DNA of 64,000 bases from Aureimonas frigidaquae (GTDB taxonomy: Bacteria; Pseudomonadota; Alphaproteobacteria; Rhizobiales; Rhizobiaceae), in NCBI RefSeq assembly GCF_001463905.1, contig NZ_BBWR01000002.1, forward strand, positions 372,001-436,000. The letters run 5' to 3'. The notes beneath the pieces were generated by a model. The model had not been told where the DNA came from, searched no databases, and saw nothing but the letters and a program-made list of their open reading frames with translations. Positions 14,856 through 46,616 of the stretch are shown piece after piece (within the stretch, counting starts at the first letter, position 1; every line of letters begins with the position of its first letter). The translations under genes and the position numbers were made by a program.

Positions 14856-14927
14856 CCGGCGGCGGAAGCGGTCAGCCGGTGTAGATCTTCGCGGCGCGTT
14901 CCTCGAACGCCACGGAGAAGCGGCAGA
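14856..14927 (-). pseudogene. ratA 3'-end fragment, copy 1 (recent)
   Basis: The first 69 bases differ at only 3 positions, by eye, from the true ratA end at 15289-15357. It sits right after the cinA stop, carries the TCA stop equivalent and has no start, so it is not a gene. Its high similarity points to a later duplication or gene conversion than the inner copies. Confidence 0.9.
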
Positions 14928-14928
14928 C

Positions 14929-15076
14929 AAACCCGTCGGGCCCGTCCATTCCAGGTCGCCGCGAGGCGATGCCGTCCTACACCGCAGGGAGCATTTCAGC
15001 GACACTGGACGGCGGCACATGCGCCGGATCAGCGCCGAAATCGCTCGATCTTCTGGACGCGCTGATCCGCCGTTGA
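14929..15076 (+). pseudogene. cinA 3'-end fragment, copy 1
   Basis: This is a decayed copy of cinA bases 14708-14855. Shared stretches include ACCGCAGGGAGCATTTC and TCGATCTTCTGGACGCG, and it ends in an equivalent TGA. Substitutions and small indels are spread along it. There is no start codon region. Confidence 0.85.
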
Positions 15077-15147
15077 CGGACGGCAACAACCATCAGTCGG
15101 TATCGATCGATCTTTGCCGCGTACCTTGGAACGCCGCGCAGATGCGG
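15077..15147 (-). pseudogene. ratA 3'-end fragment, copy 2 (old)
   Basis: This is a much-decayed copy of the ratA end. CATCAGTCGGT keeps the stop equivalent, and an ACGCC...AGATGCGG remnant follows. It is recognisable mainly because its spacing fits the array period. Confidence 0.7.
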
Positions 15148-15288
15148 GTTTCTCCGTTTCGGGACGTGCGTGGGGCGATACCATTCCGCACCGCAAGGCG
15201 CATTTCGACGACCTTGAACGGCGGCGCGTCAGATGATGCGCGTGCGGCGATTGCCTTCGATCTTCTGAACCCCTTGATGCGCCGCTGA
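15146..15288 (+). pseudogene. cinA 3'-end fragment, copy 2
   Basis: This is a decayed copy of the cinA end. The last part (CCTTCGATCTTCTG ... TTGATGCGCCGCTGA) is close to the parent; the upstream part is more diverged. It ends in an equivalent TGA that abuts the true ratA end. Confidence 0.85.
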
Positions 15289-15304
15289 CCGGCGGCGGAA
15301 ACGG

Positions 15305-15754
15305 TCAGTCGGTGTAGATTTTCGCGGCGCGTTCCTCGAACGCCACGGAGAAGCGGCGGAAGGCGTAGTCGAACATCGAGCCCATGACGAGGCCGAGCGC
15401 GCGGTTCTTGAATTCGTACTCGATGAAGAAGTGGACCTCGCAGCCGCCGCCCGCATGCTCGTCGAAGCGCCATTGGTTGCGCAGGAAGCGGAACGGCCCG
15501 TCGACATACTCCACGTCGATGCGCCGCTCATCCGGGTCGAGCAGGACCTGCGTGGTGAAGCTTTCGCGGATCATCTTGTAGGCCACGGTCATGTCCGCGA
15601 CCAGCAGCGTATCGCCCTCCCGCTCCCGGCGCGTACGCACGGTCAGGCGCTCGCACAAGGGCACGAACTCGGGATAGCGTTCCACATCGGCGACGAGGTC
15701 GAACATCTGGCGCGGCGTGAAGCGAACGACCCGCGTGCTTTCGAATTTCGGCAT
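15305..15754 (-). CDS. RatA/COQ10-type START-like protein
   Basis: This 149-residue polyketide-cyclase/START-like protein resembles yeast COQ10 and bacterial RatA. COQ10 binds ubiquinone and aids respiration, while E. coli RatA was reported to act on 50S subunits; which applies here cannot be told from sequence. Conserved parts are the start MPKFESTRVVRFTP, VERYPEFVPLC and the C-terminal helix GSMFDYAFRRFSVAFEERA. It starts 9 bp after the lipA stop. Its last 55 coding bases recur twice in the array toward cinA. Confidence 0.9.
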   Translation of the reverse strand: MPKFESTRVVRFTPRQMFDLVADVERYPEFVPLCERLTVRTRREREGDTLLVADMTVAYKMIRESFTTQVLLDPDERRIDVEYVDGPFRFLRNQWRFDEHAGGGCEVHFFIEYEFKNRALGLVMGSMFDYAFRRFSVAFEERAAKIYTD

Positions 15755-15763
15755 GGGCCCTCT

Positions 15764-16741
15764 TCAAGCGGCCGCGGCGGCCTGCCGCGCAAGACGTGCG
15801 GCCCGCAGCCGCTCGAAATCCTCGCCGGCATGGTGCGACGAGCGAGTCAGCGGACTGGCGGCCACGACGAGAAAGCCCTTCGTATAGGCCACCGTCTCGT
15901 AGGACTGGAACTCCTCCGGCGTCACATAGCGGATGACGGCATGGTGCTTGCGCGTCGGCTGCAGATACTGCCCCATGGTGATGAAGTCGACATCGGCGGA
16001 ACGCAGATCGTCCATGAGCTGCAGGACCTCGTTCCGCTCCTCGCCCAGGCCCACCATGATGCCGGACTTGGTGAAGATCGTCGGATCCAGCTCCTTGACC
16101 CGCTGCAACAGCCGGACCGAATGGAAGTAGCGGGCACCTGGCCGCACCGTCAGATAGTTGGACGGGACGGTTTCCAGATTGTGGTTGAAGACGTCCGGCT
16201 TGGCCGCCACGACAATCTCCAGGGCGCCGGGCTTGCGCAGGAAATCGGGCGTCAGGATCTCGATCGTCGTGTTCGGCGCGGCTGCGCGTATGGCGCGGAT
16301 CGTGTCGGCGAAGTGCTGCGCGCCGCCATCGTCCAGATCGTCCCGGTCGACGGAGGTGATGACGACATGCGACAGCCCCATACGCGCGACGGCGCGCGCC
16401 ACGCTGGCCGGCTCCTGCGGATCGAGCGCATGGGGCTTGCCCGTGGCCACGTTGCAGAAGCTGCAGGCACGGGTGCAGATGCCGCCCATGATCATGAAGG
16501 TGGCGTGTTTCTTTTCCCAGCAGCCGCCGATATTGGGGCAGCCGGCTTCCTCGCACACGGTGACGAGTTTCTCGGATTTGACGATCTCACGCGTTTCGGC
16601 ATAGCCGCGCGAAACCGGCGCCTTGACGCGGATCCAGTCGGGTTTGGGCAGCACCTCGGTATCCGGGCGCTTGGCCTTTTCGGGATGGCGAAGCCGGGGC
16701 TTGGCCCCGGCCTGCGTTACGGTGTCGAGAAGGGTGACCAT
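15764..16741 (-). CDS. lipA: Lipoyl synthase LipA
   Basis: This 325-residue radical-SAM enzyme inserts two sulfurs into octanoyl groups on lipoyl domains. The auxiliary cluster cysteines are C63, C68 and C74 ([12 protein letters not shown]), and the SAM cluster cysteines are C89, C93 and C96 (CTRACSFC). Length and motifs are standard. It lies in the same direction as the pdh genes, whose PdhB and PdhC products both carry lipoyl domains it would modify. Confidence 0.97.
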
Positions 16742-16818
16742 GGAACCTATTTAACCCCGGCAAGGGCCCGCTGCAATGCGGGGGCCGTCCGCATGCATCC
16801 GTTGCATGGCCCGCCTTC

Positions 16819-16840
16819 GCGGACGGGCGAGCCCGTCCGC
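16819..16840 (-). terminator. Perfect inverted repeat between the small membrane protein gene and lipA
   Basis: Ten-base perfect arms (GCGGACGGGC / GCCCGTCCGC) lie around a 2-base centre just beyond the 16849 stop. There is no T tract, so it may be an mRNA-stabilising hairpin or a weak terminator. Confidence 0.45.
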
Positions 16841-16848
16841 TGCGCGGA

Positions 16849-17103
16849 TCAGGCCCGGCCCCGAATGGCGCGCCACAGGAAGATCAGCAGGCACGCGCCC
16901 ACGATCGCGACGATGAACTGCACGAGGTAGGTTTCTGCCGTATAGACCCCGAACAGGCTCAAGATGAAGTTCAGAAACAAAGCCCCGACAATGCCGAGGA
17001 TGATGTTGGTCAGAAGGCCGATATTGGCCCCCATCACTTTCTCCGCCACCCAGCCGGCCAGGCCGCCGAGAATGATGGACATGATAATGCCGACGCCGTT
17101 CAT
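16849..17103 (-). CDS. GlsB/YeaQ/YmgE-family small membrane protein
   Basis: This 84-residue, very hydrophobic protein has three membrane segments. It has the Gly-rich first helix (IILGGLAGWVAEKVMG) and the second segment (ILGIVGALFLNFILSLFG) of the family. The family is linked to general stress in enterobacteria, but its biochemical role is not established. The ATG chosen has an AGGAG site 8 bases upstream; a GTG three codons earlier is possible. It lies between lpdA and lipA, a position common in Hyphomicrobiales. Confidence 0.88.
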   Translation of the reverse strand: MNGVGIIMSIILGGLAGWVAEKVMGANIGLLTNIILGIVGALFLNFILSLFGVYTAETYLVQFIVAIVGACLLIFLWRAIRGRA

Positions 17104-17171
17104 GCAAGCCACTCCTGTCCAAGTTTCGCGCGGCCCGTGCCGCGCTCTAGCTTAGATGGACCGGTCGAGCC

Positions 17172-17192
17172 CCGGTCAAGGGCATTGACCGG
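17172..17192 (-). terminator. Hairpin downstream of lpdA
   Basis: Stem CCGGTCAA / TTGACCGG with a 5-base loop, 38 bases after the lpdA stop. No T tract follows on the minus strand, so termination is uncertain. Confidence 0.4.
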
Positions 17193-17230
17193 CCGCGGCA
17201 ACGCCCCGCCGGCCCGGCGTGTCCGCCGTG

Positions 17231-18682
17231 TCACATGTGGATCACACGTCCATAGGCATCCAGGACGCTTTCATGCATCGTCTCCGACAGGGTCGGATGC
17301 GGGAAGACGGCGTGCATCAGCTCTTCTTCCGTCGTCTCCAGGCCCATGGCGATGACGAAGCCCTGGATCAGCTCCGTGACTTCCGCGCCCACCATATGGG
17401 CGCCCAGGAGCTCGCCAGTCTTCGCGTCGAAGACGGTCTTGACCATGCCTTCCGGCTCGCCCAGCGCAATGGCCTTGCCGTTGCCGATGAACTTGAACCG
17501 GCCGATCTTGACCTCGCGCCCGCTTTCCTTGGCCTTGGCTTCGGTCAGGCCGACGCTCGCCACCTGGGGCTGGCAGTAGGTGCAGCCGGGGATCTGTGTC
17601 CGGATCATCGGATGGGCGTCGAGCCCCTTGATCTTTTCGACGCAGATCGTCCCTTCGTGCTCGGCCTTGTGGGCCAGCATGGGCGCGCCCGCAACATCCC
17701 CGATGGCATAGATGCCGGGTACGTTGGTCTTGCCGTAGGGATCGACCTTGATGATCCCGCGCTCGATCGTGACGCCCGCAGCCTCGAGGCCGAGCCCCTC
17801 GGTATTGCCCTGGACACCGACGGCGGAAATCAGCCGCTCGGCCTTCAGGACCTGCGAGGCGCCGCCTTGCTCCACCGTCACCTCGACACCGTCGCCGGTC
17901 TTGGTCACCTTGGCGACCTTGGCGTCGGACAGGATCTTCATGCCCTGCTTCTCGAACTGCTTGCGCGCCAGTGCCGCGATTTCGGCATCCTCGACCGGCA
18001 GGATCTGCGGCAGGAGCTCGACCACGGTGACCTCGGCTCCCATGGTGCGATAGAAGGACGCAAATTCGATGCCGATCGCTCCCGACCCCATGACGATCAG
18101 GGACTTGGGCATGGACTTCGGCTTCATGGCCTCGAAATAGGTCCAGATACGGTCGCCGTCGGGCTCGATCCCCGGCAGGACACGCGGGCGCGCCCCGGTG
18201 GCGACGATCACGTTGCGGGCCTTGTAGCTGCCGTGTCCCAGGCTGGTCTTCGGAACCGGGTTCTGTGGCTCGACGACCGGCTTGGACGCATCGCCCACCA
18301 CGACCTCGACCACACCGCCCTTGGGCGCCCCGTTGATGCGCGCCTCGCCCCAGATCACATCGACCTTGTTCTTCTTCAGGAGCATGCCGACGCCGCCATT
18401 GAGCTGCGCCGATACACCACGTGAGCGCTTGACGACGGCGCCGATGTCGAAGCCCGGCTTCTCGATGTTCAGGCCGTAATCCTTGGCATGTTCGGCATAG
18501 TGGAAGATCTCGGCCGAACGCAGCAACGCCTTGGTGGGAATACAGCCCCAGTTCAGGCAGATGCCGCCCAGATGCTCGCGTTCCACGACCGCAGTGCGCA
18601 AGCCGAGCTGCGCCGCGCGGATCGCCGCGACGTAGCCGCCGGGCCCGCCGCCGATGATGAGGATGTCGTAGGTCTCTGCCAT
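17231..18682 (-). CDS. lpdA: Dihydrolipoyl dehydrogenase (E3)
   Basis: This 483-residue FAD enzyme reoxidises dihydrolipoamide of the pyruvate dehydrogenase complex, passing electrons to NAD+. FAD motif GGGPGG lies at 11-16, the redox-active Cys pair is C42/C47 (CLNWGC), and the C-terminal His-Glu active-site segment is HPTLSE near residue 460. The ATG matches the family start; a longer open frame reaches into pdhC but has no support. It is 43 bp from pdhC, at the end of the pdhA-pdhB-pdhC-lpdA run. Confidence 0.96.
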   Translation of the reverse strand: MAETYDILIIGGGPGGYVAAIRAAQLGLRTAVVEREHLGGICLNWGCIPTKALLRSAEIFHYAEHAKDYGLNIEKPGFDIGAVVKRSRGVSAQLNGGVGMLLKKNKVDVIWGEARINGAPKGGVVEVVVGDASKPVVEPQNPVPKTSLGHGSYKARNVIVATGARPRVLPGIEPDGDRIWTYFEAMKPKSMPKSLIVMGSGAIGIEFASFYRTMGAEVTVVELLPQILPVEDAEIAALARKQFEKQGMKILSDAKVAKVTKTGDGVEVTVEQGGASQVLKAERLISAVGVQGNTEGLGLEAAGVTIERGIIKVDPYGKTNVPGIYAIGDVAGAPMLAHKAEHEGTICVEKIKGLDAHPMIRTQIPGCTYCQPQVASVGLTEAKAKESGREVKIGRFKFIGNGKAIALGEPEGMVKTVFDAKTGELLGAHMVGAEVTELIQGFVIAMGLETTEEELMHAVFPHPTLSETMHESVLDAYGRVIHM

Positions 18683-18725
18683 GTTCGTCTGTCCCTGCCC
18701 GTCCGCAACGTCACGCAAGGTCCGG

Positions 18726-20117
18726 TCAGACCAGCATGCCCATGGGATTTTCGATGTACTGACGGAATGCCGATAGGAGTTCCGCACCCAAGGCGCCGTC
18801 CACCGCACGATGGTCGGTCGACAGCGTGACCGTCATGACATTGGCGATCGTGATCTCGCCCTTGCGCACCACGGCCCGCTCCTCACCCGCGCCGACCGCC
18901 AGGATGGTGGCATGCGGCGGGTTGATGACGGCGGAGAAATCGCGAATGCCGAACATGCCGAGATTGGAGACGGCCGTCGTGCCGCCCTGGTACTCTTCCG
19001 GCTTCAGCTTGCGCGAGCGTGCCCGGCGGGCGAGATCCTTCATCTCGTTGGAGATGACGGAGAGCGTCTTTTCGTCGGCGCGCCGAACGATCGGCGTGAT
19101 CAGCCCACCCTCGATCGACACGGCCACGCCCACATCGGCATTGCGATGCTTGAGCATCGCACTTTCCGTCCAGGAGACGTTGGCATCCGGCACGGCCTTG
19201 AGGGCGCAGGCCATCGCCTTGATGATCATGTCGTTGACCGACAATTTGTAGGCCGGCTTATCGCCCGCATCGGTGCGCACCATGGGCGCGGCTTCGTTGA
19301 GTTGCTTGCGCAGGGCCAGGAGTGCATCGATCTGGCAATCGACCGACAGGTAGAAGTGCGGCACAGTCTGCTTGGATTCCACCAGCCGGCGCGCAATGGT
19401 CTTGCGCATGCCGTCATGCGGGATCTCCTCAAAGGAGCCTTGCGCGAAGAGCTTGCGGACGGCGTCGTCTGACGCTCCCTTGGCCGGGGCCGACGCAGCC
19501 GGCGCTGCTGCAGCCGCCTGCGGCGTTGCCGCCGCCGGAGCGGCAGATTCCGCTTTGGCGCCGCCACCCTTGGCTGCCGCCTCGACATCGGACTTGACGA
19601 TCCGGCCCTGCGGGCCCGACCCCGTCACGCCCGCCAGCTCGACCCCGAGCTCCCGGGCGATGCGCCGCGCCAAGGGCGAGGCAAAGACCCTGTCACCCTT
19701 TGGCGCAGAGGCCTGGGCGGGTCCTCGAGCGGGTGCCTCGGCGGATTCTTGCGCGGGCGCTTGAGCCGTCGTCAGCGTGGCGGTGGCAGGCTCGGACTTC
19801 ACCTCGTCCTGGCTGACCGTCACGGCCGCGTCGGCCTTCGGATCGGCGGCGATGGCGCCGGCATCGGCGCTTTCGCCGTCGGCGGTCAGGACGGCGATGG
19901 TGGCATTCACCTTCACGCCTTCCGTCCCGGCGGGAACCATGATCTTCGCCACGGTTCCTTCATCGACGGCTTCGACCTCCATCGTGGCCTTGTCGGTCTC
20001 GATCTCGGCGATCACGTCGCCGGGCGACACCTTGTCGCCCTCCTTGACCAGCCACTTGGCCAGCGTGCCTTCTTCCATGGTCGGCGACAGGGCCGGCATC
20101 GTCACATTGATCGGCAT
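18726..20117 (-). CDS. pdhC: Pyruvate dehydrogenase complex E2, dihydrolipoamide acetyltransferase
   Basis: This 463-residue protein moves the acetyl group from lipoamide to CoA and forms the complex core. One N-terminal lipoyl domain (about 1-80, lipoyl Lys in ETDKATM) is followed by an Ala/Pro/Glu linker. A peripheral subunit-binding domain follows (SPLARRIARELGVEL, about 147-182), then a second Ala-rich linker, then the catalytic domain with DHRAVDG near the C-terminus. The lipoyl domain is nearly the same as that of PdhB. It begins 56 bp after the pdhB stop. Confidence 0.97.
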   Translation of the reverse strand: MPINVTMPALSPTMEEGTLAKWLVKEGDKVSPGDVIAEIETDKATMEVEAVDEGTVAKIMVPAGTEGVKVNATIAVLTADGESADAGAIAADPKADAAVTVSQDEVKSEPATATLTTAQAPAQESAEAPARGPAQASAPKGDRVFASPLARRIARELGVELAGVTGSGPQGRIVKSDVEAAAKGGGAKAESAAPAAATPQAAAAAPAASAPAKGASDDAVRKLFAQGSFEEIPHDGMRKTIARRLVESKQTVPHFYLSVDCQIDALLALRKQLNEAAPMVRTDAGDKPAYKLSVNDMIIKAMACALKAVPDANVSWTESAMLKHRNADVGVAVSIEGGLITPIVRRADEKTLSVISNEMKDLARRARSRKLKPEEYQGGTTAVSNLGMFGIRDFSAVINPPHATILAVGAGEERAVVRKGEITIANVMTVTLSTDHRAVDGALGAELLSAFRQYIENPMGMLV

Positions 20118-20173
20118 CCGTCCAATCTCCTCAGATGGCCCTGTCGGGCATCGTCACTTCCAACAGCCAAGCC

Positions 20174-24735: not shown

Positions 24736-27700
24736 GTGCCTGCCCAACCCCTGAACGCCAAAGCCGCCGCTGCGGGGAATTTGCCCAACTACGTCCTTTC
24801 GGACGGGCGCTCCATGCGGCCCCTTCCCCTCGACGTTCAGGCGCAGCCGGGCGGGCGGTACAAGATTCTGCAGCGCAGCGGCAACGCCGTAAAGCCCGTT
24901 ACAAAGCTCATCGCCATTGCCGACGGGGCCGACGGCAAGGCCGATCTTCGCCTGCTCCTGGACGACGGGACGCAAGTCACCATCCGCGACTTCTACCGTG
25001 TGGAGGATGCGCGCCTGTCGGCGCCGCGCGCCGATGGCGGGGAAGCCTCCATCGACCGCTTCACGCGCAGCCTGGCCGTCGGCGGCGACAGTCGGGACAT
25101 CGTCCTCCTGAGCGGAAGCCCCGCAGACGTGACTGCCCTTGCAAAGCTTTATGCAGGGCAATTCGAGGTCCTGTCTCCCACGACGCTGTCGAATGCCATG
25201 ATCTGGTCCGAGGAGCCTGCGGTCTCTGCCGCAACGCCCGGCAGCGCGTCCTTCTTGTCCAAGCTGTCCCTTGGCCCGATCGATGCCACCAGCGGTCTCG
25301 GCCTGCTGGCGGGGATCGGCGCCGTCGGCGCCGGTGTAGGGCTTGTCTCCTCGTCGTCGTCAAAGAGTTCCTCATCGACGGGCGCCAAGCCGGTGCTGTC
25401 GGTGGCCAGCATCGCCAAGGACAATAAGGTCAATGCGTCCGAGGCCCAATCCCCGGTCGTCATCTCCGGCACCACCAGTCATGTCGAGGACGGTCAGGTG
25501 GTGACGGTCAACTGGGGCGGTGTTGTCAAGACGGGCGTCGTCACAAGCGGCACGTGGTCCGTCTCAGTCGCACCGGGCGAAGTTCCGGCCGATGGTGACC
25601 ACGCGATTAAAGTCTCGGTGACCAATCTGGAAGGCTTGTCCACAGAGGTGGCCGGCAATCTTCCGGTCGACCGTATAGGCCCGGCGATCGCTCTGAATAC
25701 GACCGTCCTCAACAAAGCCGCTGTCACCAATGGCGGGACACTGACCGGAACGTCCGACCTTCCGGACGGCTCGGTCCTTTCCGTTACCGTGGGCACGGTC
25801 AGCAAGACCGCGACCGTCGCCTCCGGCAAATGGAGCGTTGCCTTCACAGCGTCCGACATACCAGCCAGTGCGACCTCGCTGTCCGTGACGGTCCAGGGTG
25901 CGGACAGCTTCGGGAACTCCAATCTCATCTTCGCCAGCCCCATCATCGACAAGACGGCGTCGCTGAGCATCAGCACGCCGTCCGTCGACGGGCGCATCAA
26001 TGGTTGGGACCGCAAGTCCAGCGTAACTTTCCAAGGCACCGCCACCGGTATCGAGGAAGGGCAGACCGTCAACGTCAGCCTGAACGGCGTCAGCCATACC
26101 GTAACCATTACCAAAGGCGGCACCGTGTCGGCGCCCGTCTACGAATGGTCCGCCACCTTCACTGCCAGTGAACTGCCCGCCGCGGACGGGATATACACGC
26201 TCGCCGCAGTGGCGGCGGACAAGGCCGGGAACACGGCCACGCAGACGCTGAGCATCCCGGTGGCGAAAATCTTCGCCCCCGACGCCGCCAATGCCACGCC
26301 GGGCCTGGTCCTCAACGGCGACAAGACGGGCGATACCGCCGGGACGATCGTCGGCTGGGCGGGCGACGTGAACGGCGACGGCTACGACGATGTGATCGTT
26401 TCCGCACCGGATGCCGACCCGGCAAGCCAATCGAGCGCCGGCCGCACCTATATCGTCTTCGGCGGCACGGCCAGTACTGCCATCGACCTTTCAGCACTCG
26501 CCAATGCGGGCGGCGCCCCCAAGGGCTTTGCCATCGATGGCCGGGCCACGGGCGACGGGCTCGGCTATGCCGTGGCCGCACTCGGCGACATCAACGGCGA
26601 CGGCCGGTCGGACATGATCGTCACCGCCCCCTTCAGCGATATGGACGGGCCTGATTCCGGCCGCGCCTATATCATCTTCGGCAAGACCGCGGGCGATACG
26701 CTGGCGCTCAGCAGCCTCACCCCATCGCAGGGCTTTGCCATTGCCGGCCTGTCCAGCGGCGATAAGCTCGGATCGAGCGCGGCCGCCATCGGCGATGTGA
26801 ATGGCGATGGTTACGCCGATTTCCTGCTGGGGGCACCCGGTGCCAATGGAGGGAACGGCAAGGCCTATGTTGTCTTCGGCGCGTCGTCCATGACGAGCGT
26901 CCAGCTGTCCGCTGTCGCGGCCGGCAACGGCGGGTTTGCCATAGACGGTTTTTCCGGCGTGGCAGGGTTCGGCAGCCACGCCGCCGGCATCGGCGACATC
27001 AATGGTGACGGGCTGGCCGACATGGTGATCTCTGGCGGCTCGACAGCCAATACCGCCTATGTCATCTTCGGCCGCACATCCTCTTCCTCGATCGCCGTCA
27101 GCACGCTGACCGGCGGTAGCGGCGGCTTTGCCATCACCGGCGATACGGGGCAGATGATCGGCCTCAGCCTCTCGGCCGCCGGCGACGTCAATGGCGATGG
27201 TTTTGCCGACTTTGCCGTCGGCACCAACGGAACAGGTTCGGCCGGGCGCAGCTATGTCATCTTCGGCAGCTCGAACCAGGCTTCCATCAATCTGTCGAGC
27301 CTGAGCGGCAATCGCGGCTTCGCCATTGCCGGCGCAACGGCCAATGAACATGCCGGCACGTCGATCGCCTATGCGGGCGATGTGAATGGCGACGGCCTGG
27401 CGGATTTGATCGTCGGCGCGCCGGCCAGCGATGTGACCGGCACGAATGCCGGCCGCGCCTATGTCGTCTTCGGCAGGACGGGCTCGACCACGGTCGAGCT
27501 GAGCGCGCTTGCCGCCTCGGACGGCTTCGCCATTTCCGGGGCAGCGTCCGAAACGGATACGGGCCTCGGCGTCTCCTATGCAGGCGATGTCAATGGTGAT
27601 GGCATTGACGATCTGATCGTCGGCGTTCCCCGCTCCACGGTCGATACGACGAAGGCGGCAGGCCAGGCCTTCGTCATCTTCGGATCGACGAACTCGACCT

Positions 27701-28437: not shown

Positions 28438-29136
28438 ATGAGCGACTTCGACCTTTACTACTGGCCCCTGCCGTTTCGCGGGCAGTTTATCCGCGCCATC
28501 CTGGCCTATGCAGGGCAGGACTGGACGGAACACGACAGCGACGAAAATGCCGCCCTCATGGCGCGTCCGCCGGCCGACCAGCCGGTTCCCTTCACCGGCC
28601 CACCCGTGCTGATCGACAGGCGGACGGGCTTTGCCCTGTCGCAAATGCCGGCCATTGCGGGCTATCTGGGGGAACGTTTCGGCCTGACGCCAGACACGGT
28701 CGAGGCACGGGCCCTGGTGGCGAAGACCGCAAACGACGCCAATGACGTGATCGACGAGCTGACGCAGTTCGGTGGGCGGCAGATGTGGAGCGATGCTTCC
28801 TGGCGCGAATTTCGACCAAGATTGATCGGCTGGATGGCGCTGTTCGAGGAGATCGGCCAGCGCAACGGCCTGTCGATAAGTTCTGGCAATTATCTGGCGA
28901 CGGCCGAGCCAAGCACGGCCGACATCATCGTCAGCACGCTCTGGTCCACGATGGGCGACCGCTTTCCACCCCTTGCCGACCTTTGCGAGGAAAAGGCGCC
29001 GAATGTCTGGGCGCTGAGCGAGCGCATGCAAAACAATCCGGCACTCGCCGCGCTACGCAGCCGTACGCGGGACACCTATGGAGACGCCTATTGCGGTGGC
29101 GAGATCGAGGCATCCCTGCGCAAGGTCATGCGGTAG
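28438..29136 (+). CDS. Glutathione S-transferase family protein
   Basis: This 232-residue protein has a thioredoxin-like N-terminal half with YYWPLPFRGQFIR at the start and a cis-Pro region (GPPVLIDRRTGFALSQMPAIAGYL). An all-helical C-terminal half follows, with STADIIVSTLW in the substrate-side domain. Substrate is not deducible; the N-terminus resembles eukaryotic sigma/mu-like enzymes more than the common bacterial beta class. A GGAG site precedes the ATG. The gene is convergent with kdsA, and its last 85 bases recur four times, decayed, downstream. Confidence 0.85.
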   Translation: MSDFDLYYWPLPFRGQFIRAILAYAGQDWTEHDSDENAALMARPPADQPVPFTGPPVLIDRRTGFALSQMPAIAGYLGERFGLTPDTVEARALVAKTANDANDVIDELTQFGGRQMWSDASWREFRPRLIGWMALFEEIGQRNGLSISSGNYLATAEPSTADIIVSTLWSTMGDRFPPLADLCEEKAPNVWALSERMQNNPALAALRSRTRDTYGDAYCGGEIEASLRKVMR

Positions 29137-29175
29137 ATCGCTCGGGCAGACGTGGTTGTCCGACCTTCTCACCTG

Positions 29176-29395
29176 TCAGAAGTCCTTGCTAAGCCGCTCC
29201 AACGCCTGAAACCGCTTCACGAACATCGCCGTATCGCCGAGACGCCCCATGCTCGGCCCGTCCGAGGGCGCATGATCGGGCGACCAGTGGGCTTCGATGA
29301 CAAGCTTCATAAAGCGATGGCAACAGCCGCACGCGCCAAGGTCAATACGAAGCCGCGCTCCCCGCCTGATGCACCCCCGGCGGCTGGACCGAAGC
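29176..29395 (-). pseudogene. kdsA 3'-end fragment K1
   Basis: Decayed copy of kdsA 30464-30690. Landmarks are GGCCCGTCCGAGGGCGCATG and ATACGAAGCCGCGCTCCCCGC. It shares many derived changes with K2. Confidence 0.9.
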
Positions 29396-29480
29396 GTGAA
29401 CCAACCGCATCCGGGATCCTTATGGAGACGCCTGTCGCGGCGGCGAGATAGAAGCATCCCTGCGCAAGGTCATGCGGTAG
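29396..29480 (+). pseudogene. GST 3'-end fragment G2
   Basis: Copy of the last 85 bases of the GST gene. Its final 27 bases, ending GGTCATGCGGTAG, are identical to the parent, so it is the freshest GST copy. Confidence 0.92.
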
Positions 29481-29519
29481 ATCGCTCGGGCAGACGTGGT
29501 CGTCCGACCCTCTCACCTG

Positions 29520-29738
29520 TCAGATGTCCTTGCTAAGCCGCTCCAACGCCTGAAACCGCTTCACGAACATCGCCGTATCGCCGAGACGCACCATGCTTGG
29601 CCCGTCCGAGGGCGCATGATCGGGAGACCTATGGGTTTCGATGACAAGCTTTATAAAACGATGGCAACAGCCGCACGCGCCAAGGTCAATACGAAGCCGC
29701 GCTCCCCACCTGATGCTCCCCCGGCGGCTGGACCGAAG
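29520..29738 (-). pseudogene. kdsA 3'-end fragment K2
   Basis: Near twin of K1 and equally far from true kdsA. The pair arose by duplication of an already decayed copy. Confidence 0.9.
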
Positions 29739-29823
29739 CGTGAACCAACCGCATCCGGGATTCTTTGGAGACGCATGTCGCGGCGGCGAAATAGAGGCTT
29801 TCCTACGCAGGATCATGCGGTGG
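29739..29823 (+). pseudogene. GST 3'-end fragment G3
   Basis: Decayed GST tail with the stop changed to TGG and a one-base loss relative to G2. Confidence 0.85.
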
Positions 29824-29862
29824 ATGGTTTGGGAAACCTTAAACTGTGCGGCCTTCCACCCG

Positions 29863-30082
29863 TCAGAGGTCTATGATTAGCGCCTGAGGCCGCCTTGGCA
29901 CACCGTCATATCAATAAGATGGACCATGTTCGGCGCGCCTGATGGCGCGTTGTCGGGACCTGTCGGGTATCGATGAAAGCTCAACGACGCCGACGGTAAC
30001 GGCCACACGGACCAGCGGCGATACGAAGCGACGCTCTCCTCCCGAGGCTACACCTGCCTACCCCCACTCCTGGACCAAAGCG
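29863..30082 (-). pseudogene. kdsA 3'-end fragment K3
   Basis: An independent, older copy. It keeps ATGGACCATGTTCGGC and GGCGATACGAAGCG from the parent but lacks the K1/K2-specific changes. Confidence 0.85.
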
Positions 30083-30166
30083 CTAACCTACCACAGGCGA
30101 ATTGCCCATTTGGACGCCTAGCACGGTGGCGAAGTCGAGGCATCCCGGCGTAAGGGCACGCGATAG
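30083..30166 (+). pseudogene. GST 3'-end fragment G4
   Basis: Decayed GST tail recognised by GGTGGCGAAGTCGAGGCATC and a retained TAG at the expected phase. Confidence 0.8.
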
Positions 30167-30205
30167 ATGCGTGTGCGGACGTGGGTCGCCCTGCCATCCG
30201 GCCTA

Positions 30206-30362
30206 TCACAGGTCCTTGGTGAGCCCGTTGAGCGAATGTAGCCGCTGCAGCCCTTCCGTCATGCCGCGATGGACCATGTTGAGCCCGTCAGACAGCGCAA
30301 CGTCGGCATCCTGACGGGTTTCGATGAACAGCCCGGCAACGCCGACGAGGAAAGGCGCACGC
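30206..30362 (-). pseudogene. kdsA 3'-end fragment K4, shortened
   Basis: Keeps CAGGTCCTTGGTGAGC and GGTTTCGATGAACAGCCCGG but lacks about 85 bp at its upstream (kdsA-internal) end, which explains the short last period. Confidence 0.85.
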
Positions 30363-30430
30363 GGAGTTCTTTTGAAGACTCCTATCGCGGAGACAAGAAT
30401 GAGGCACCCCGGCGCCGGGTCGTGCGGCTT
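30363..30430 (+). pseudogene. GST 3'-end fragment G5
   Basis: The most decayed GST tail, directly before the original spacer hairpin and the true kdsA end. The stop has become CTT. Confidence 0.7.
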
Positions 30431-30447
30431 GGCAGCCTTAAGCTGCC
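30431..30447 (-). terminator. Small hairpin beyond the kdsA stop
   Basis: Stem GGCAGC / GCTGCC with a 5-base loop in the spacer next to kdsA. Altered remnants occur in the other units, so it looks like the ancestral shared terminator of the convergent pair. Confidence 0.4.
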
Positions 30448-30463
30448 CGGCCTGCCCTGCCCG

Positions 30464-31297
30464 TCAAAGCTCCTTGGTGAGCGCATCCAGCGCCTGAAGC
30501 CGCTTCAGCAACTCCGCCATGTCGTCGAGATGGACCATGTTCGGCCCGTCCGACGGCGCATTGTCGGGGTCCTGATGGGTTTCGATGAACAGGCCGGCAA
30601 CGCCAACGGCAACGGCCGCACGCGCCAGCGTCGATACGAAGCGGCGCTCCCCGCCCGAGGCTCCGCCTTGCCCGCCCGGCTGCTGGACCGAATGGGTCGC
30701 ATCGAAGACGACCGGCAAGCCGGTCTCGGCCATGATGGGAAGGGCGCGGAAGTCGGAGACGAGCGTATTGTAGCCGAAGGTCACGCCCCGCTCGGTCAGC
30801 AAAACATTGGGGTTGCCGCTGTCAGTCACCTTGGCCGCGACATTGCGCATGTCCCACGGCGCCAGGAACTGCCCCTTCTTGATGTTGACCACACGCCCCG
30901 TTTCGGCAGCGGCGATCAGAAGATCCGTCTGCCGGCACAGGAATGCGGGAATCTGCAGGACATCGCAGACGGGCGCCACGTCCCGGCATTGTTCCTGCGT
31001 ATGGACATCGGTCAGCACGGGCACGTCGAATGTCCGGGCGATCTCCTCGAAGATCGGCATTGCCGCCGCAAGGCCCATGCCGCGCCGGCCCTTGAGGCTG
31101 GTGCGGTTGGCCTTGTCGAAACTGGCCTTGAAGACGTAGCCCATGCCCAGATCGCTGGTGATGCGCTTCATCCGCTCGGCGATCATCATGGCATGATCCC
31201 GGCTCTCGAGCTGACAAGGCCCGGCGATCAGGGCGAAGGGCAGGTTCTGGCTGAACGTGACCTTGCCGGCCGTAACGGATGCGGGTGCGACGGACAT
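30464..31297 (-). CDS. kdsA: 3-deoxy-8-phosphooctulonate synthase (KDO 8-P synthase)
   Basis: This 277-residue enzyme condenses arabinose 5-phosphate with phosphoenolpyruvate to make KDO 8-phosphate for the lipopolysaccharide inner core. Conserved segments are ALIAGPCQLES near residue 22, KASFDKANRTS, LTDVHT, IPAFLCRQTDLL, NIKKGQFLAPWDM and the C-terminal ETHQDPDNAPSDGPNM. The ATG with an upstream GGAAGG site is used; the longer frame overlaps pyrG. It lies 22 bp after the pyrG stop. The gene appears intact in spite of the copies of its end next door. Confidence 0.97.
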   Translation of the reverse strand: MSVAPASVTAGKVTFSQNLPFALIAGPCQLESRDHAMMIAERMKRITSDLGMGYVFKASFDKANRTSLKGRRGMGLAAAMPIFEEIARTFDVPVLTDVHTQEQCRDVAPVCDVLQIPAFLCRQTDLLIAAAETGRVVNIKKGQFLAPWDMRNVAAKVTDSGNPNVLLTERGVTFGYNTLVSDFRALPIMAETGLPVVFDATHSVQQPGGQGGASGGERRFVSTLARAAVAVGVAGLFIETHQDPDNAPSDGPNMVHLDDMAELLKRLQALDALTKEL

Positions 31298-40153: not shown

Positions 40154-40166
40154 CAGACGGGTTGCG

Positions 40167-40181: not shown

Positions 40182-40191
40182 AGTTAGGTTT

Positions 40192-40206
40192 GTTCTGGTT
40201 TTGTTT
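40192..40206 (+). promoter_or_regulatory. Second, imperfect SOS-like box, GTTC-N7-GTTT
   Basis: This matches the reverse-oriented SOS consensus GTTC-N7-GTTC except for the last base. It is 25 bp after the first box, in a T-rich stretch that probably overlaps the lexA promoter. Confidence 0.5.
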
Positions 40207-40229
40207 TTTCCGATTCCCCGGGGGGCGCC

Positions 40230-40955
40230 GTGCTCACGCGCAAACAGCATGATCTCCTGATCTTTATTCATGAGCGGCTGCAATCGGCTGGCGTCCCGCC
40301 CTCCTTCGACGAAATGAAGGACGCGTTGGATCTGCGTTCCAAGAGCGGCATCCACCGGCTGATCACGGCACTGGAAGAGCGCGGCTTTATCCGCCGCCTG
40401 CCCAACCGTGCCCGCGCGCTGGAAGTCCTCCGCCTGCCGGAATCGGCATCGCGCACGGACAAGACCGGCGCAACGCCATTCCGTCCCAGCGTCGTCAGCA
40501 CCTCCGAGCCTGCCCCGCCCGTCAGTCTGGCGGCGCGCCGGCAGGCCATGGCCGCCGCCGAGGTGGAGGAATCCGGTATCAGCATTCCCGTGATGGGCCG
40601 CATCGCGGCGGGCGTGCCGATCTCCGCGATCCAGAACAACACGCGCAACCTGCTTCTGCCGCCGGACATGATCGGCAGCGGGGAGCATTACGCGCTCGAA
40701 GTATCGGGCGACTCGATGGTCGAGGCCGGGATCCTGGACGGTGATACCGTCGTGATCCGGCGGGTCGAAACGGCGACCCCGGGCGACATCGTCGTGGCGC
40801 TTGTGGACGATGAGGAAGCCACGCTCAAGCGCTTCCGGCGCAAGGGCGATGCCATCGCACTGGAAGCGGCCAACCCCGCCTATGAGACACGGATCTTCAA
40901 TTCCGAGCGCGTCAAGGTGCAGGGGCGTCTGGTGGGCTTGATCCGCCGTTACTGA
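40230..40955 (+). CDS. lexA: SOS repressor LexA
   Basis: This 241-residue repressor of DNA-damage genes is cleaved when RecA is activated. The N-terminal winged helix starts [17 protein letters not shown], and a linker covers about 65-115. The peptidase half carries the cleavage site Ala127-Gly128 (RIAAGVPI), nucleophile Ser162 (GDSMVEAG) and Lys200. The start is GTG with a G-rich site upstream. The last 44 bp overlap the end of comEC, which runs the other way. Confidence 0.97.
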
Positions 40956-43173
40956 CGGCTTCCTCTGCCGTGTCCCTGCCCGGCTCCACGGCGGCGGCCT
41001 TTCGCCGGAGCGACTCGGGCCATGGCGCCAGGCGATGAAGGTTCCAGGCCTGTGGCGCCGGCGGAATGGCTTGCCGTATGTCCGAGCGGCCTGCGCCCAG
41101 ATCGCGGATGGCGAGTGACCCCGAACGCCGAAGGGTTCGCAGCGTGATGAGCTTTGCCCCGGATTGGCACGTCCGCTCGCGAATGGCCCGGGCCACGATG
41201 GCAATGTCGCTCGTGGCGCATAGCGTTTCGGTGAGGGTGTAATCCTCCGTCCAGCCGATCCGCAGCCCCTGTGGCCCGCTCGCGCGGCAGATGGAATCCG
41301 CGCAGACGAACTCATCCTCCAGGAAGGGGCCGAAGGCGCTGGTCCACTGGTTCGCGATGAAGGGCCCGGGCGGCCGCCCCATCGGCCTCAGCCCCTCGGC
41401 CTTGACGATGGCAAGCTTTCGGCCATCCTCGTAGAGCAGCATGTCCGGCAATGGCGGGCGCGTCGTGGACAAGGCGAGTGCCAGGAGCGTGAGCGGCACA
41501 GCCAGCCATCGCAACGCACCCACCAGGAAGCAGGCGCAGAAGAGCGCCGCGGCATAGGTGATGAGTTCCTGGCCCGACATCAGCCCCGCGGCCCGATCCG
41601 GCAAGAGTGCGGCGGCGTGGCGCGTGACCACGAAAACGGCGTCGAGCCCCCATCCCATCAGAATAAGAAAAGGGGCATCCAGGCCGAACGGCATGGCCAG
41701 CATGGCGACGAGCCCGGCTGGCATCACCCAAAAGCTGAAGAGCGGCATGACGAGGATATTGGTGACGACACCGTAGGGCGCCGTGCGACCGAAATGATAC
41801 GCCACGAAAGGCGTCGTCGACAGGCCTGCCACGGCGGAGGATACGATCGCGACGAGGATGAGCGCTCCCAGGCGGCCGACGGACAGCCCCTCGCCTTCCG
41901 TCTTGCCGAACCCGGCCAGAAGATGGCTTGCAACGCCGACCAGCGCGGCCGTGGCGGCGAAAGAAAGCTGGAAACTGGCCGACAGGGCTTCGTGCGGCGC
42001 CAGCGCCAGGACGATCATGGCCGCCAGGGAAACGTTGCGCAGCGTCAGTGCCGGGCGGTCCAGAAGGACCGCGCCCAGCATCAGGACGATCATGATGAAG
42101 GAACGTTCCGTCGCCACGTTGGGGCTGGCGATGGCAAGATAGGCCAGGACCCAGACCAGCGCGAAGGCGGCTGCCACCTTGCGCGGCGCCGGCCATCGGG
42201 ACGGCCATGGCAGGAGGGCCAAAAGCAACCGCACGCTGCCCATGACGAAGCCTGCCACCAGCGCCATGTGATAGCCGGAGATGGACAGGACATGCGACAG
42301 GCCCGTGACGCGGAAATCCTTCGAGATCTGGTCCGGGATGGCGTCCCGGTCTCCCGTCACGAGGGCGGCAGCAACGGCGCCTGCCGGCCCGGTAATGACA
42401 TCGTGAATGCGCTCCGTGATCCGGCTGCGAAAGGCTGCGAGGTGTTCCCAGACACCCTGCAACCCTACTGTGTCAGGCACGGCGTCGGGCGGTCCGAGCG
42501 CGAAGCCATAAGCGCCGAGACCGCCGAAATAGGCTGCGACGGCAAAATCGTAGGCGGTTGGATAGGCCGGCCCGCTGGGTGGCGACAGGCGAACGAGCCC
42601 CCGATAGCTGCCGCCGATGGGAATGGGTTCATGCGCCGAGGCGACGGTGATGCGAACCTCGCTCGGCGGCCGGGACAAGGTCGGCTCGAATGTCCGGGAT
42701 ATGCGCACGCGGTAGCGCCAGCGCCCGAGATCGTCGGCCTGGCGTTCCACGACCCGTCCCTCGATCCGCACCATGGCGGTTCCCGACAGGATGACGGCAG
42801 CCTCGCCGCGCATCTCCCATTGCGCCAGGACCTGCCCCGCCAGAGCCGCGGCAAGGAGAAGGCAGCCGAAGACGATCGGCCCCGCCGCCAGCACCGGGCG
42901 TCTGCGCAGAGCCGCGATGAGGGCGAGAAGCATCGCCATGGCCGCCAGGGCCGAACGCATGGATATGCGCCAGGATAGGAGATGATAGGCGGCAATGCCC
43001 AGGATAAGGGCGAGCGTGATCGCGTGCAGCCCTGTCCGCCTGGCGGCCTGCGCGTCCATCTGCAGGCGCAGCCAGCCGATGCAGGAGTGCAGGATCGGTC
43101 GCGTCCCGGCAATGCTGATCCTGTCGACCATCTCCCTCCCGACGGCGCCGAGCCGGTGCTTGTCTGAGCGCAT
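40912..43173 (-). CDS. ComEC/Rec2-family membrane protein
   Basis: This is a polytopic protein of about 753 residues. An N-terminal DUF4131-like region has early hydrophobic helices and a soluble OB-like segment ([13 protein letters not shown]). A competence-domain core follows ([35 protein letters not shown]) with many membrane segments. In ComEC the core forms the channel for incoming single-stranded DNA. The C-terminal part has no HxHxDH motif, so the metallo-beta-lactamase-like domain is absent or degenerate. The start is uncertain: ATGs at 43173 and 43131 both lack well-spaced ribosome sites. It is divergent from gltX. Confidence 0.88.
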
Positions 43174-43304
43174 CCCTATGCTACACAGCGGGCTGAACAG
43201 GTTGCAGCGTCCGGGCGGGCCGGGACACGTTCCGGAGCCGCTTATCCAAAGCCTTCGCCTGAAGGTTACGGCCCCTTGCAGCCGAGCAAACATCTGGAGT
43301 CGTC

Positions 43305-44729
43305 ATGAACGAGAAGGTCGTCACCCGCTTCGCGCCGTCGCCGACGGGTTACCTGCATATTGGCGGTGCGCGGACGGCGTTGTTCAACTGGCTGTATGCG
43401 CGCCACCATGGCGGCAAGATGCTGCTGCGGATCGAGGATACGGATCGTGAGCGCTCCTCAGAGGCGGCGGTCAAGGCCATCATCGAGGGGCTGGCATGGC
43501 TGGGGCTGGACGCCGACGAGCCGCCCATTTCCCAGTTCGAACGCGCGGCGCGGCACCGGGAGGTCGCCGAGGAGATGATCGCCCGCGGGCAGGCCTATTA
43601 CTGCTATGCCAGCCAGGCCGAACTGGACGAGATGCGGGAAAAGGCCCGCGCGCAAAAGCGCCCGCCCCGCTATGACGGCCGCTGGCGCGACCGGGATCCG
43701 TCAGAAGCGCCTGCCGGCGTGAAGCCTGTCATCCGGCTGCGCGCGCCGCTGGACGGCGAAACCGTCGTGCATGACCGCGTTCAGGGTGAGGTCCGCTTTC
43801 CCAACAAGGACCTCGACGACCTTGTCCTCCTGCGCTCCGACGGCACCCCCACCTATATGCTGGCCGTGGTGGTGGACGATCACGACATGGGGGTGACGCA
43901 CATCATCCGGGGTGATGATCACCTGACCAATGCCGCACGCCAGACGCTGATTTTCCAGGCCATGGGCTGGGACGTGCCGGTCATGTCGCATATCCCGCTG
44001 ATCCATGGCGCGGACGGCGCAAAGCTCTCCAAGCGCCATGGCGCGCTGGGGGTCGAGGCCTATCGTGAGATGGGTTACCTTCCGGCGGGCCTCAACAACT
44101 ATCTCGTCCGGCTGGGCTGGAGCCACGGGGATGACGAGATCATGTCCATGGACGACATGATCCGCTGGTTCGATGTGGACGATGTGAACAAGGGTGCGGC
44201 GCGCTTCGACTTCGCCAAGCTGGAAGCGGTCAACGGTTACTGGATGCGGCATAGCGAGGATGGCTGGCTGGCCGAGACGCTGATGCGCGAACGCGACTTC
44301 CTGCCCAATGGCGACATCCTCCGCATGGCGGACGACGCAACGGTCCTGCGTTTGCTGACGGCTGCCATGCCGGGGCTGAAGGAGCGCGCCAAGACGCTCG
44401 TCGAGCTTGCGGACAGCGCTGCCTATCTTTTCGTCAGGCGCCCCCTGGCTCTGGAGGAAAAGGCGGAGCAGATCCTGGCCGATGGCGGCCGCGGCGTAAT
44501 CGCCATGGTTCTTCCGGCCCTGCGTGCGGTGGACGACTGGAGCGTTCCTGCGCTGGAAGCGGCCGTCCGGCAGGTGGCGGAGGCAAACGGCCTGAAGCTC
44601 GGCAAGGTCGCCCAGCCGCTGCGCGCCGCGCTGACCGGTCGCACCACCTCGCCCGGCGTCTTCGACGTTCTGGCGGTACTGGGGCGCGAGGAAGCGCTGG
44701 CGCGGCTAGCCGATCAGTCGGGCGCCTGA
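43305..44729 (+). CDS. gltX: Glutamyl-tRNA synthetase
   Basis: This 474-residue class I synthetase charges tRNA-Glu. The HIGH-type motif is [11 protein letters not shown] (11-21) and the KMSKS-type motif is KLSKRHG near 240. The RIEDTD segment follows the first motif. Many alphaproteobacteria have two gltX copies and use one GluRS for Gln-tRNA; whether this copy is discriminating cannot be told. A CTGGAG site precedes the ATG. gltA follows after 177 bp. Confidence 0.96.
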
Positions 44730-44906
44730 CGAGGGCGCCGATGCCAGAACGCGGCGCAGTGCGGCAGTTTTCGCTGCCACGCAAAAAAAGAGGGTGCGGA
44801 AAACTTGTTCGCATGCCGCGGACAAGTTAGGCATTACGTCCGAAATCGACGTATGCGCCGCGGATTCATCGCTTGGCTCCGCGGCTTTTCGAAGAAGGGA
44901 TAACGC

Positions 44907-46196
44907 ATGAGTGACGCCGCAAAGCTGCTGCTCGACGGGAAGGAAGCCGGTTTCGGCGTCCGGCACGGTACGATCGGCCCCGATGTCGTCGACATCGCAT
45001 CGCTCTACAAGGATACGGGCGTCTTCACTTACGACCCTGGCTTCACCTCCACGGCGGCCTGCGAGTCGAAGATCACCTTCATCGACGGCGACGAGGGTGT
45101 GCTCCTGCATCGCGGTTACCCGATCGAACAGCTCGCCGACAAGGGCGACTTCCTGGAAGTCTGCTATCTGCTACTCTACGGCGAACTGCCGACCCAGCAG
45201 GAGCGGGAAGATTTCATCTACCGCGTCACGCGCCATACCATGGTGCATGAGCAGATGACGAAGTTCTTCACGGGCTTCCGGCGCGATGCGCACCCGATGG
45301 CCGTCATGGTTGGCTCGGTCGGTGCCCTCTCCGCCTTCTATCACGACTCGACCGACATTACCGATCCGCATCAGCGCATGGTCGCGTCGATCCGCATGGT
45401 CGCAAAGATCCCGACCCTGGCCGCCATGGCCTACAAATACCATATCGGGCAGCCCTTCGTTTACCCGCGCAACGACCTGTCCTACGCGGAAAACTTCCTG
45501 CATATGTGCTTCGCGGTCCCGTGCGAGCCCTACAAGATCAATCCGGTCCTGGCCAAAGCCATGGACCGGATTTTCATTCTGCATGCCGATCACGAGCAGA
45601 ACGCCTCCACCTCGACGGTGCGGCTGGCTGGCTCTTCGGGCGCCAACCCCTTCGCCTGCATCGCCGCCGGCGTTGCCTGCCTGTGGGGCCCGGCCCATGG
45701 CGGCGCCAACGAGGCGGCGCTCAATATGTTGTCGGAGATCGGCAGCAAGGACCGTATCCCCGAGTTCATCGCCCGCGCCAAGGACAAGAACGATCCGTTC
45801 CGTCTGATGGGCTTCGGTCACCGGGTCTACAAGAACTACGATCCGCGCGCCAAGATCATGCAGCAGACCTGCCACGAGGTTCTCGACGAGCTCGGGCTGA
45901 AGGACGATCCGCTGCTCGAAGTCGCCATGGAGCTCGAACATATCGCGCTGCATGACGAGTACTTCATCGAAAAGAAGCTCTACCCCAATGTGGACTTCTA
46001 TTCCGGCATCACCCTGAAGGCGCTCGGCTTCCCGACCACCATGTTCACGGTGCTCTTCGCCCTCGCCCGCACGGTGGGGTGGATCGCGCAGTGGAAGGAA
46101 ATGATCGAGGATCCGCAGCAGCGCATCGGCCGTCCGCGCCAGCTCTATACCGGTGCGACGCGCCGTGACTATGTGGGTGTCGATCAGCGGAGCTGA
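44907..46196 (+). CDS. gltA: Citrate synthase
   Basis: This 429-residue hexameric-type citrate synthase opens the TCA cycle. Catalytic residues are His in [10 protein letters not shown], His in [13 protein letters not shown] and Asp in [17 protein letters not shown] site lies upstream. A strong intrinsic terminator follows 27 bp after the stop. The gene is convergent with lpxB, and the gap holds a decayed duplicate of the lpxB end. Confidence 0.98.
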
Positions 46197-46222
46197 AGTT
46201 ACCGGCAATCGATCATACTCGA

Positions 46223-46252
46223 TGGCGCGCCCCTGAAAGGCGCGCCATTTTT
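46223..46252 (+). terminator. Intrinsic terminator of gltA
   Basis: Arms TGGCGCGCC / GGCGCGCCA around a 7-base loop, followed by TTTTT. A broken half-copy (GGCGCGCCATT) recurs at 46444, one array period downstream. Confidence 0.9.
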
Positions 46253-46616
46253 CTGAGCGCTTGAAAGGGCCCGTCGCCTTTCAGTGGCCGCGAAGCCGTA
46301 CGGTGTCAGCGCTCGATGCGTGGCGAGGCGGAAAAACGAGCATCTCTATCTGCCATTTCTGGCACGACTTGCGCGCAAACATCGGCCGATGTCGTGCCAC
46401 GGTCATACCTCGATGAAACTCGACGAATCATGAGCCGCAGAAGGGCGCGCCATTCTGCCAGCGCTCGAAAGAGCTCGTCGCGTTTGCGTGGCTGCCGAGC
46501 CGGACGGTATCAAGGCTCGACGTGCGACGGTCCGGAAAGCTGCGCATCGGCGCCCACCATCTCCAGCACGATCTGCGCGCTCGCCTCGCCCGGGCTCTGT
46601 GACACGGTCATGCGGC
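46236..46616. repeat. Two-unit tandem duplication at the gltA/lpxB convergent junction
   Basis: The 313 bp between gltA and lpxB hold the gltA terminator and a decayed copy of the terminator's right half plus the lpxB end. Unit a (46236 to about 46415) aligns with unit b (46440 to about 46616, running into live lpxB) at a period of about 205 bp. GGCGCGCCATT is at 46239 and 46444, and the lpxB stop equivalents are at 46306 and 46510. Similarity is moderate but continuous over about 170 bp. Confidence 0.85.
46306..46415 (-). pseudogene. lpxB 3'-end fragment
   Basis: Decayed copy of lpxB 46510-46616: TCA stop equivalent, then GCTCGATGCGTGGCG, and CACGGTCAT near its end match the parent. It has no start and is not coding. 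Confidence 0.8.

Follow-up and report, generated by a model that had tools for sequence, protein, structure and literature searches.

Tandem arrays of gene 3' ends at convergent junctions in Aureimonas frigidaquae, with younger arrays in a sister species

Tandem duplications joined at short homologies (short-junction duplications) are a known kind of bacterial rearrangement and form without RecA. Other described repeats include minisatellites, or variable number tandem repeats (VNTRs), which have units of roughly 10-100 bp, and palindromic clusters of the REP/RIME type, which lie behind genes. Here we describe tandem arrays built from the 3' ends of neighboring genes in a 64,000-nucleotide stretch of Aureimonas frigidaquae (the window), which corresponds to positions 372001-436000 of contig C2 (NZ_BBWR01000002.1) in a draft genome of 4.10 Mb and 30 contigs (G000). 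The arrays occupy three convergent junctions, cinA/ratA, GST/kdsA (GST, glutathione S-transferase) and gltA/lpxB, and younger ones were found in a sister species, G002. We favor, with a probability of about 0.6, the view that they are scars of short-homology tandem duplications that survived where no gene was broken and no gene start was copied, and that decayed afterwards. The accessible parts of the open-access literature on convergent genes with duplication, fragments or termination name no such arrays, and one source covers the rates and fates of bacterial duplications (PMC3857721).

The head-to-tail structure, relative ages, breakpoints and placement of the arrays were established directly. 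Like short-homology duplications, the arrays are head-to-tail, meet at homologies of about 3-14 bp and hold 2-5 copies. Sister comparison indicates that at four of the five G002 loci a once single-copy segment was copied directly head to tail, and all five arrays there have a short chance-homology joint and no long end repeat. They depart from typical short-homology duplications in their units (0.2-0.5 kb, with no whole gene and no dosage change) and in their location at convergent 3' ends, and those in the window are old and decayed. They share with minisatellites the arrangement of tandem copies between genes, but their units of 205-475 bp exceed the minisatellite size range and are made of neighboring gene ends. 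Their position behind genes also recalls REP/RIME clusters; however, they are copied locally from the flanking genes, and the GST/kdsA array, the sole one searched genome-wide, is not dispersed.

Genes were called with a phase-specific order-4 Markov predictor trained on G000, the window's own genome. The three arrays (located by self-BLAST and alignment) and their flanking genes (assigned by Pfam) are as follows.

14361..14855, + strand: cinA (CinA family), intact; gene prediction and PF02464, E 2.6e-50 (longer frame 14295-14855)
about 14700-15356: cinA/ratA array; convergent pair with a predicted gap of 449 bp
15305..15754, - strand: ratA-type gene (Polyketide_cyc), intact; PF03364, E 3.4e-32
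28438..29136, + strand: glutathione S-transferase gene, intact; PF22119, E 1.8e-52
29068..30692: GST/kdsA array; convergent pair with a predicted gap of 1327 bp
30464..31297, - strand: kdsA (DAHP_synth_1), intact; PF00793, E 5.2e-72 (longer frame to 31366)
44907..46196, + strand: gltA (citrate synthase), intact, outside the repeat; PF00285, E 9.6e-142
46221..46249, + strand: hairpin plus downstream T run, the probable terminator of gltA; shuffle z -2.1 for the 46197-46270 fold
46229..46422: first copy of the gltA/lpxB array, made of spacer and a decayed lpxB 3' end; 70% identical to the second copy, E 7.6e-15; convergent pair with a predicted gap of 313 bp
46434..46627: gltA/lpxB array copy 2, spacer plus intact lpxB 3' end (118 bp inside lpxB)
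46510..47688, - strand: lpxB, intact; PF02684, E 5e-74

The cinA/ratA array is built of three units, arranged head to tail and about 209-223 bp long (near 14736-14958, 14959-15167 and 15168-15360), and in every unit a short spacer separates the cinA 3' end from that of ratA. The first unit takes in the final 156 bp of cinA and the last takes in the final 52-56 bp of the ratA-type gene. Divergence is unequal: the units are 66-79% identical across their full length, and the window self-comparison gives 86% between 14736-14927 and 15168-15360. In the GST/kdsA array, five units of about 264-345 bp (starting near 29079, 29422, 29764, 30109 and 30373) alternate GST 3' ends (one intact, four decayed) with kdsA 3' ends (four decayed, one intact). 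Units 1 and 2 are 94% identical and the remaining pairs 60-71%, with about 80 bp deleted from unit 4. By self-comparison, 29068-29725 matches 29412-30057 at 82%, and more diverged units extend to 30692, inside kdsA, of which 229 bp at the 3' end lie within the array. A second kdsA-like gene is present on the same contig (C2:628439-629245), and its protein is 69% identical to that of the window kdsA.

The gltA/lpxB array is the weakest of the three (E 7.6e-15), with two units of about 205 bp that are about 70% identical, and the probable gltA terminator lies largely within its copy 1. The first-pass annotation of this DNA had described units that span one or both gene 3' ends; this holds for both genes at cinA/ratA and GST/kdsA, where the intact genes are outermost, whereas the gltA/lpxB unit contains only spacer and the lpxB end. 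Overall, the window copies are now about 60-79% alike except for kdsA units 1-2 (94%). Array edges partly intrude into flanking genes at all three loci, and all six flanking genes have open reading frames and match their respective families. The "spacer" at the roomy window junctions is mostly the array itself; the median convergent gap in G000, out of 152, is 21 bp. No tRNA gene was found in the window, and its single Rfam match at gathering score lies away from the arrays, which argues that the units are not tandem RNA genes. That match is to the rpsB sRNA family at 59961-60057 (- strand) and, at 40.3 bits, is barely above the gathering score of 40.

Gene prediction reproduced the five convergent pairs reported in the first-pass annotation, and the three roomy ones do contain the decayed tandem end copies described there, with three copies at cinA/ratA, five at GST/kdsA and two at gltA/lpxB. 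The other two pairs are the following.

1551-2414 and 2427-3806: mazG/hflX, convergent, gap of 12 bp; gene prediction, MazG and HflX by Pfam
40230-40955 and 40912-43131: fourth convergent pair, called lexA/comEC in that annotation, overlap of 44 bp; gene prediction

Each gap of 100-3000 bp was then aligned to 300 bp of either neighbor and compared with 60 dinucleotide shuffles, using the window plus 56 stretches of G000 (1.18 Mb in total, window overlaps excluded). As had been proposed, the end copies exceed the shuffle background at the window's three gaps (z 47, 48 and 4.5), and z never rises above 2.3 in the remaining 21 window gaps of this size. The excess expected at convergent gaps was also recovered across the sample (3/23 convergent, z 48, 47 and 4.5, vs 0/211 codirectional and 0/144 divergent) at a cut of z 4 that was chosen once the list had been seen; the script's stricter tally at z 8 leaves 2/23. 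The top divergent gap reaches z 3.2. One codirectional gap, L205 (z 7.3, which would make 1/212), was dropped because it is mostly a 280 aa ABC-permease-like frame missed by the predictor (proW-like, judged by eye), and the next-best codirectional gap has z 3.6. However, none of the other 20 convergent gaps in the sample holds copies. A genome-wide rule in G000 is therefore not borne out, the window's three arrays are not a sample of one, and the convergent contrast in G000 comes entirely from the window that raised the question. An earlier self-BLAST pass over 824 kb of G000 had found repeats in 3/14 convergent, 1/82 codirectional and 0/77 divergent gaps of at least 150 bp, and a further 386 kb gave 0/6, 0/42 and 0/43, respectively.

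Placement could be assessed in the sister species G002, a one-contig genome of 4.2 Mb of which 800 kb were sampled. Extra 3'-end copies of kdsA and ratA were first seen there by a genus-wide search, and the ratA and kdsA arrays were thus known before stretches were chosen; the other three arrays were found blind. With an array defined as tandem, junction-spanning and with a unit of 100-1200 bp, the sample holds five junction arrays, all convergent, with units of 269-475 bp in 2-3 copies that are 95-99% alike.

cinA/ratA: unit 269 bp, 3 copies, convergent
FG-GAP gene/kdsA: unit 475 bp, 2 copies, convergent
leucyl/phenylalanyl-tRNA-transferase gene/outer-membrane beta-barrel (omp) gene: unit 386 bp, 2 copies, convergent
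rRNA dimethylase (rsmA)/guanylate kinase gene: unit 337 bp, 3 copies, convergent
pnp/redoxin-like (TlpA-like) gene: unit 322 bp, 3 copies, convergent

The sampled junctions number 657 (471 codirectional, 92 divergent and 94 convergent), or 467, 91 and 93 without gene fragments predicted inside the arrays. As in G000, convergent gaps have a median of 21 bp, and the ancestral gaps at the array junctions were small (3-96 bp). A sixth tandem repeat, L256, was excluded by eye as mobile-element-like, with no gene predicted to its left. Breakpoints, which were read base by base at these five arrays only and not at the old window arrays, show unit-edge homologies of about 3 bp (ratA), 4 bp (omp), 9 bp imperfect (rsmA), 9-13 bp imperfect (kdsA) and at most 14 bp imperfect (pnp), and these appear to fit short-homology duplication. 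Differences between copies cluster at unit edges in some cases and are scattered in others, and some substitutions are common to copies 2 and 3 and to the sister species.

One decayed array in G000 is not convergent. It lies right behind rplQ (ribosomal protein L17) at L069:16033-16620 (contig C2, about 786 kb), within an 826-bp codirectional gap, and it accounts for the single codirectional repeat in the self-BLAST pass. Its unit of 276 bp (73% alike) takes in 7-13 bp of the rplQ end. The concentration at convergent sites that had been noted for the window recurs in all five G002 junction arrays, and the rplQ array is an exception to it. The eight convergent arrays and the rplQ array include gene 3' ends but never a 5' end. 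This content, common to all nine kept non-genic arrays in the two genomes, is as tolerance predicts and fits the earlier argument that duplications are tolerated where both genes stay complete.

When intervals of the observed lengths were placed at random in the G002 sample, 57.4% fell within one gene, 3.2% spanned a convergent junction and 6.1% covered the 3' end of a single gene together with spacer. The convergent position of all three blind arrays accordingly has P 3e-5 among all intervals and 4e-4 once intervals within one gene are excluded, or P 0.003 relative to the share of junctions; if L256 is scored as a miss (3/4), the first two values become 1.3e-4 and 0.0016. Four arrays were found blind when the rplQ array of G000 is added to the three of G002. 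All of them are 3'-end-only, a content expected in 22% of the intervals that do not fall within one gene (P 0.002, or 0.010 counting L256 as a miss).

The six junction genes were searched across a genus set of 21 genomes. Gene-end copies of kdsA and ratA occur in G000 and G002, those of lpxB in G000 only, and those of rsmA, tlpA and omp in G002 only; for omp, an adjacent end copy appears among the matches of G002 alone. G001 and G003, which are nearer to G002 than G000 is, are single-copy at ratA, kdsA, rsmA and tlpA, with main alignments 84-93% identical to G002 at those four loci. Therefore, the G002 duplications are younger than the splits from G001 and G003, unless these drafts collapsed identical copies. 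The kdsA partner is GST in G000 and an FG-GAP gene in G002, and ratA unit edges differ between the two, which indicates that the ratA and kdsA junctions were each duplicated twice, independently. In a sample of 151 family genomes, ratA gave one match in 147, none in 3 and two pieces forming one gene in G025, although this search detects only well-kept copies, since even the decayed copies in G000 escaped it. In G000, the proteins of ratA and lpxB gave one match each.

We also considered repair-gene loss as a cause. Matches over the cut-off were obtained for mutS and recJ in 8/8 genomes, for mfd in 21/21 and for SbcD in 0/21; because these results are uniform across genomes, no repair gene searched sets G000 and G002 apart. 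A second Mfd-like protein is present in the other 17/21 genus genomes, with none among the matches for G002, G005, G007 and G009. The idea of kdsA as a genus-wide hotspot was rejected because the arrays in G005 and Jiella mangrovi look palindromic by eye, are codirectional and lack gene ends. These clusters, which resemble the REP/RIME type, lie between kdsA and an eno-like gene at L337:13179-13628 (G005, 58-bp units) and L073:10892-11871 (J. mangrovi, 389-bp units). By kdsA protein, the nearest named relatives are J. mangrovi (82%) and Consotaella and Antarcticirhabdus (77%), all of which we take to be Aurantimonadaceae.

In the mechanism that we propose, slippage or template switching between short chance homologies (about 3-14 bp) would duplicate about 200-475 bp, and recombination could afterwards alter copy number. 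Most such duplications would be lost through gene breakage or the copying of 5' ends, whereas those across convergent junctions or behind 3' ends would persist because the genes stay whole and only start-less tails are added. Surviving copies would then drift apart and shed pieces, presumably by neutral decay, to give arrays such as those in the window. Young arrays probably go unseen in drafts, because short-read assembly tends to merge near-identical copies. The process is best read as tolerated ordinary mutation with an orientation-dependent distribution, recurrent in two related species, and not as a machine.

Several observations weigh against this account. Three more G000 arrays lie inside genes (window 27241-27625, L046 and L204), and these were set aside as presumed repeats within proteins, the window one being in an FG-GAP gene. 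Furthermore, gene-tail arrays occur at none of 123 convergent junctions in four other one-contig records (1.2 Mb). Two of the four belong to the genus: 200 kb of G007, with 24 convergent junctions, and 200 kb of G009, with 15, are free of arrays. The other two are Rhizobiaceae records. Shinella sp. PSBB067 (45 convergent junctions in 400 kb) has no gene-tail array and one array inside a gene, and Sinorhizobium sp. K101 (39 in 400 kb) has none that is convergent, two inside one gene and one 63-bp codirectional array. Because these control junctions lack gene-tail arrays, tolerance alone leaves the arrays of this clade unexplained. The contrast between G002 and the four controls is suggestive and not firm (Fisher P 0.08 for the blind arrays and 0.014 for all five). 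In addition, 3'-only tolerance predicts that about 35% of arrays are convergent; the blind 3/3 gives P 0.04, and with rplQ the blind 3/4 gives P 0.12. An excess at convergent sites beyond tolerance is thus modest and unproven. At the G002 rate of 5/94, the sharing of two of the three window junctions has P ~0.008. Finally, the blind support amounts to four arrays; two in G002 and all three in the window were known before sampling.

The lone convergent array in Shinella is made of three tandem tRNA-Glu genes and not of gene tails. Around kdsA, 80 named loci (1.42 Mb with 115 convergent junctions, and with many drafts and distant groups represented) contain no convergent array; they have one codirectional array (Jiella), two inside genes and one, unplaced, at a locus edge. 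The in-gene arrays of Shinella, Sinorhizobium and the named loci, the 63-bp Sinorhizobium repeat and the locus-edge array were left out of account. Two records filed as plasmids, NZ_CP069303.1 (4.6 Mb) and NZ_CP104131.1 (3.5 Mb), look like chromosomes because both carry an lpxB-like gene and the first also has a kdsA-like region.

A different origin would follow if head-on RNA polymerases or replication conflicts break DNA at convergent junctions and short-homology repair then duplicates the site, so that these junctions are hotspots and not refuges. The convergent placement of all 8 gene-tail arrays in the two species, somewhat above what 3'-end tolerance predicts (3/3 blind, P 0.04), and the independent duplication of the ratA and kdsA junctions in both species speak for such breakage, as does a preprint that reports head-on polymerase collision as a prevalent ending of convergent transcription in Escherichia coli (PMC13082048). 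We nevertheless regard breakage as rather unlikely, since collisions would be expected at the 123 array-free control junctions too, the rplQ array is codirectional, and junctions with long perfect stems are not clearly favored (2/5 array junctions vs 7/76, P 0.09). The same comparison gave no significant sign of hairpin-triggered duplication and did not support the raised duplication rate suggested by the first-pass annotation. Quite unlikely, in our judgment, is that the arrays are retained because they are useful, separating abutting convergent genes, multiplying terminators and cutting read-through and antisense RNA. The ancestral G002 gaps were small (3-96 bp), yet short convergent gaps are usual in both genomes (median 21 bp) and almost all of them lack arrays. 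The three of five G002 spacers that were folded all beat their shuffles (z -6.1, -2.5 and -2.9), and because they are stable, their copies multiply hairpins; even so, perfect stems at 3/5 G002 junctions do not exceed 5 bp, and of four window spacers folded, only that of gltA beats shuffles (z -2.1; others 0.2 to 1.2). The roles as collision buffer or antisense source that had been put forward gained no support from the GST/kdsA array, where terminator-like sites (1 vs 1.3 expected) and promoter-like sites (0 vs 0.2) show no excess, and old copies have diverged and lost segments. Copies persisting to 1-5% difference could point to retention, given that one report puts the loss of laboratory duplications of 2.6 and 3.3 kb in Pseudomonas aeruginosa at about 1e-4 per generation (PMC12607827). 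However, loss should be slower for shorter repeats, and part of the divergence may have arisen in the duplication event.

That an assembler invented the tandem copies is very improbable. The young arrays are seen only in one one-contig genome, but their copies differ by substitutions, some of them common to copies 2 and 3 and the sister species, the window copies differ by about 30%, and assemblers would not be expected to fail at convergent junctions alone. Scarcely credible is a gathering of dispersed palindromic elements or insertion remnants at gene ends. Such clusters do adjoin kdsA in G005 and J. mangrovi, and one mobile-element-like repeat was noted by eye in the G002 sample; the window arrays, however, are built from the 3' ends of their own flanking genes, and in the whole-genome search of G000 the GST/kdsA array matched only itself and the kdsA paralog. 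A tentative combination deserves mention, in which the convergent junctions of this clade are transcription-provoked duplication hotspots that are hit again across species, with arrays kept temporarily as insulators. If so, short-read assemblies would mask young arrays, and the process could be common and overlooked.

The arrays also bear on the architecture of these genomes. Convergent gaps in the genus are mostly very short, and copies filtered by orientation would supply new non-coding DNA there. They would also yield gene-tail pseudogenes, tandem terminators and a natural record of tolerated small duplications. The placement seen in the sampled part of G002 (5/5 junction arrays) is sharp enough for testing in existing long-read genomes, and the arrays lend themselves well to the question of whether duplication becomes more frequent under convergent transcription.

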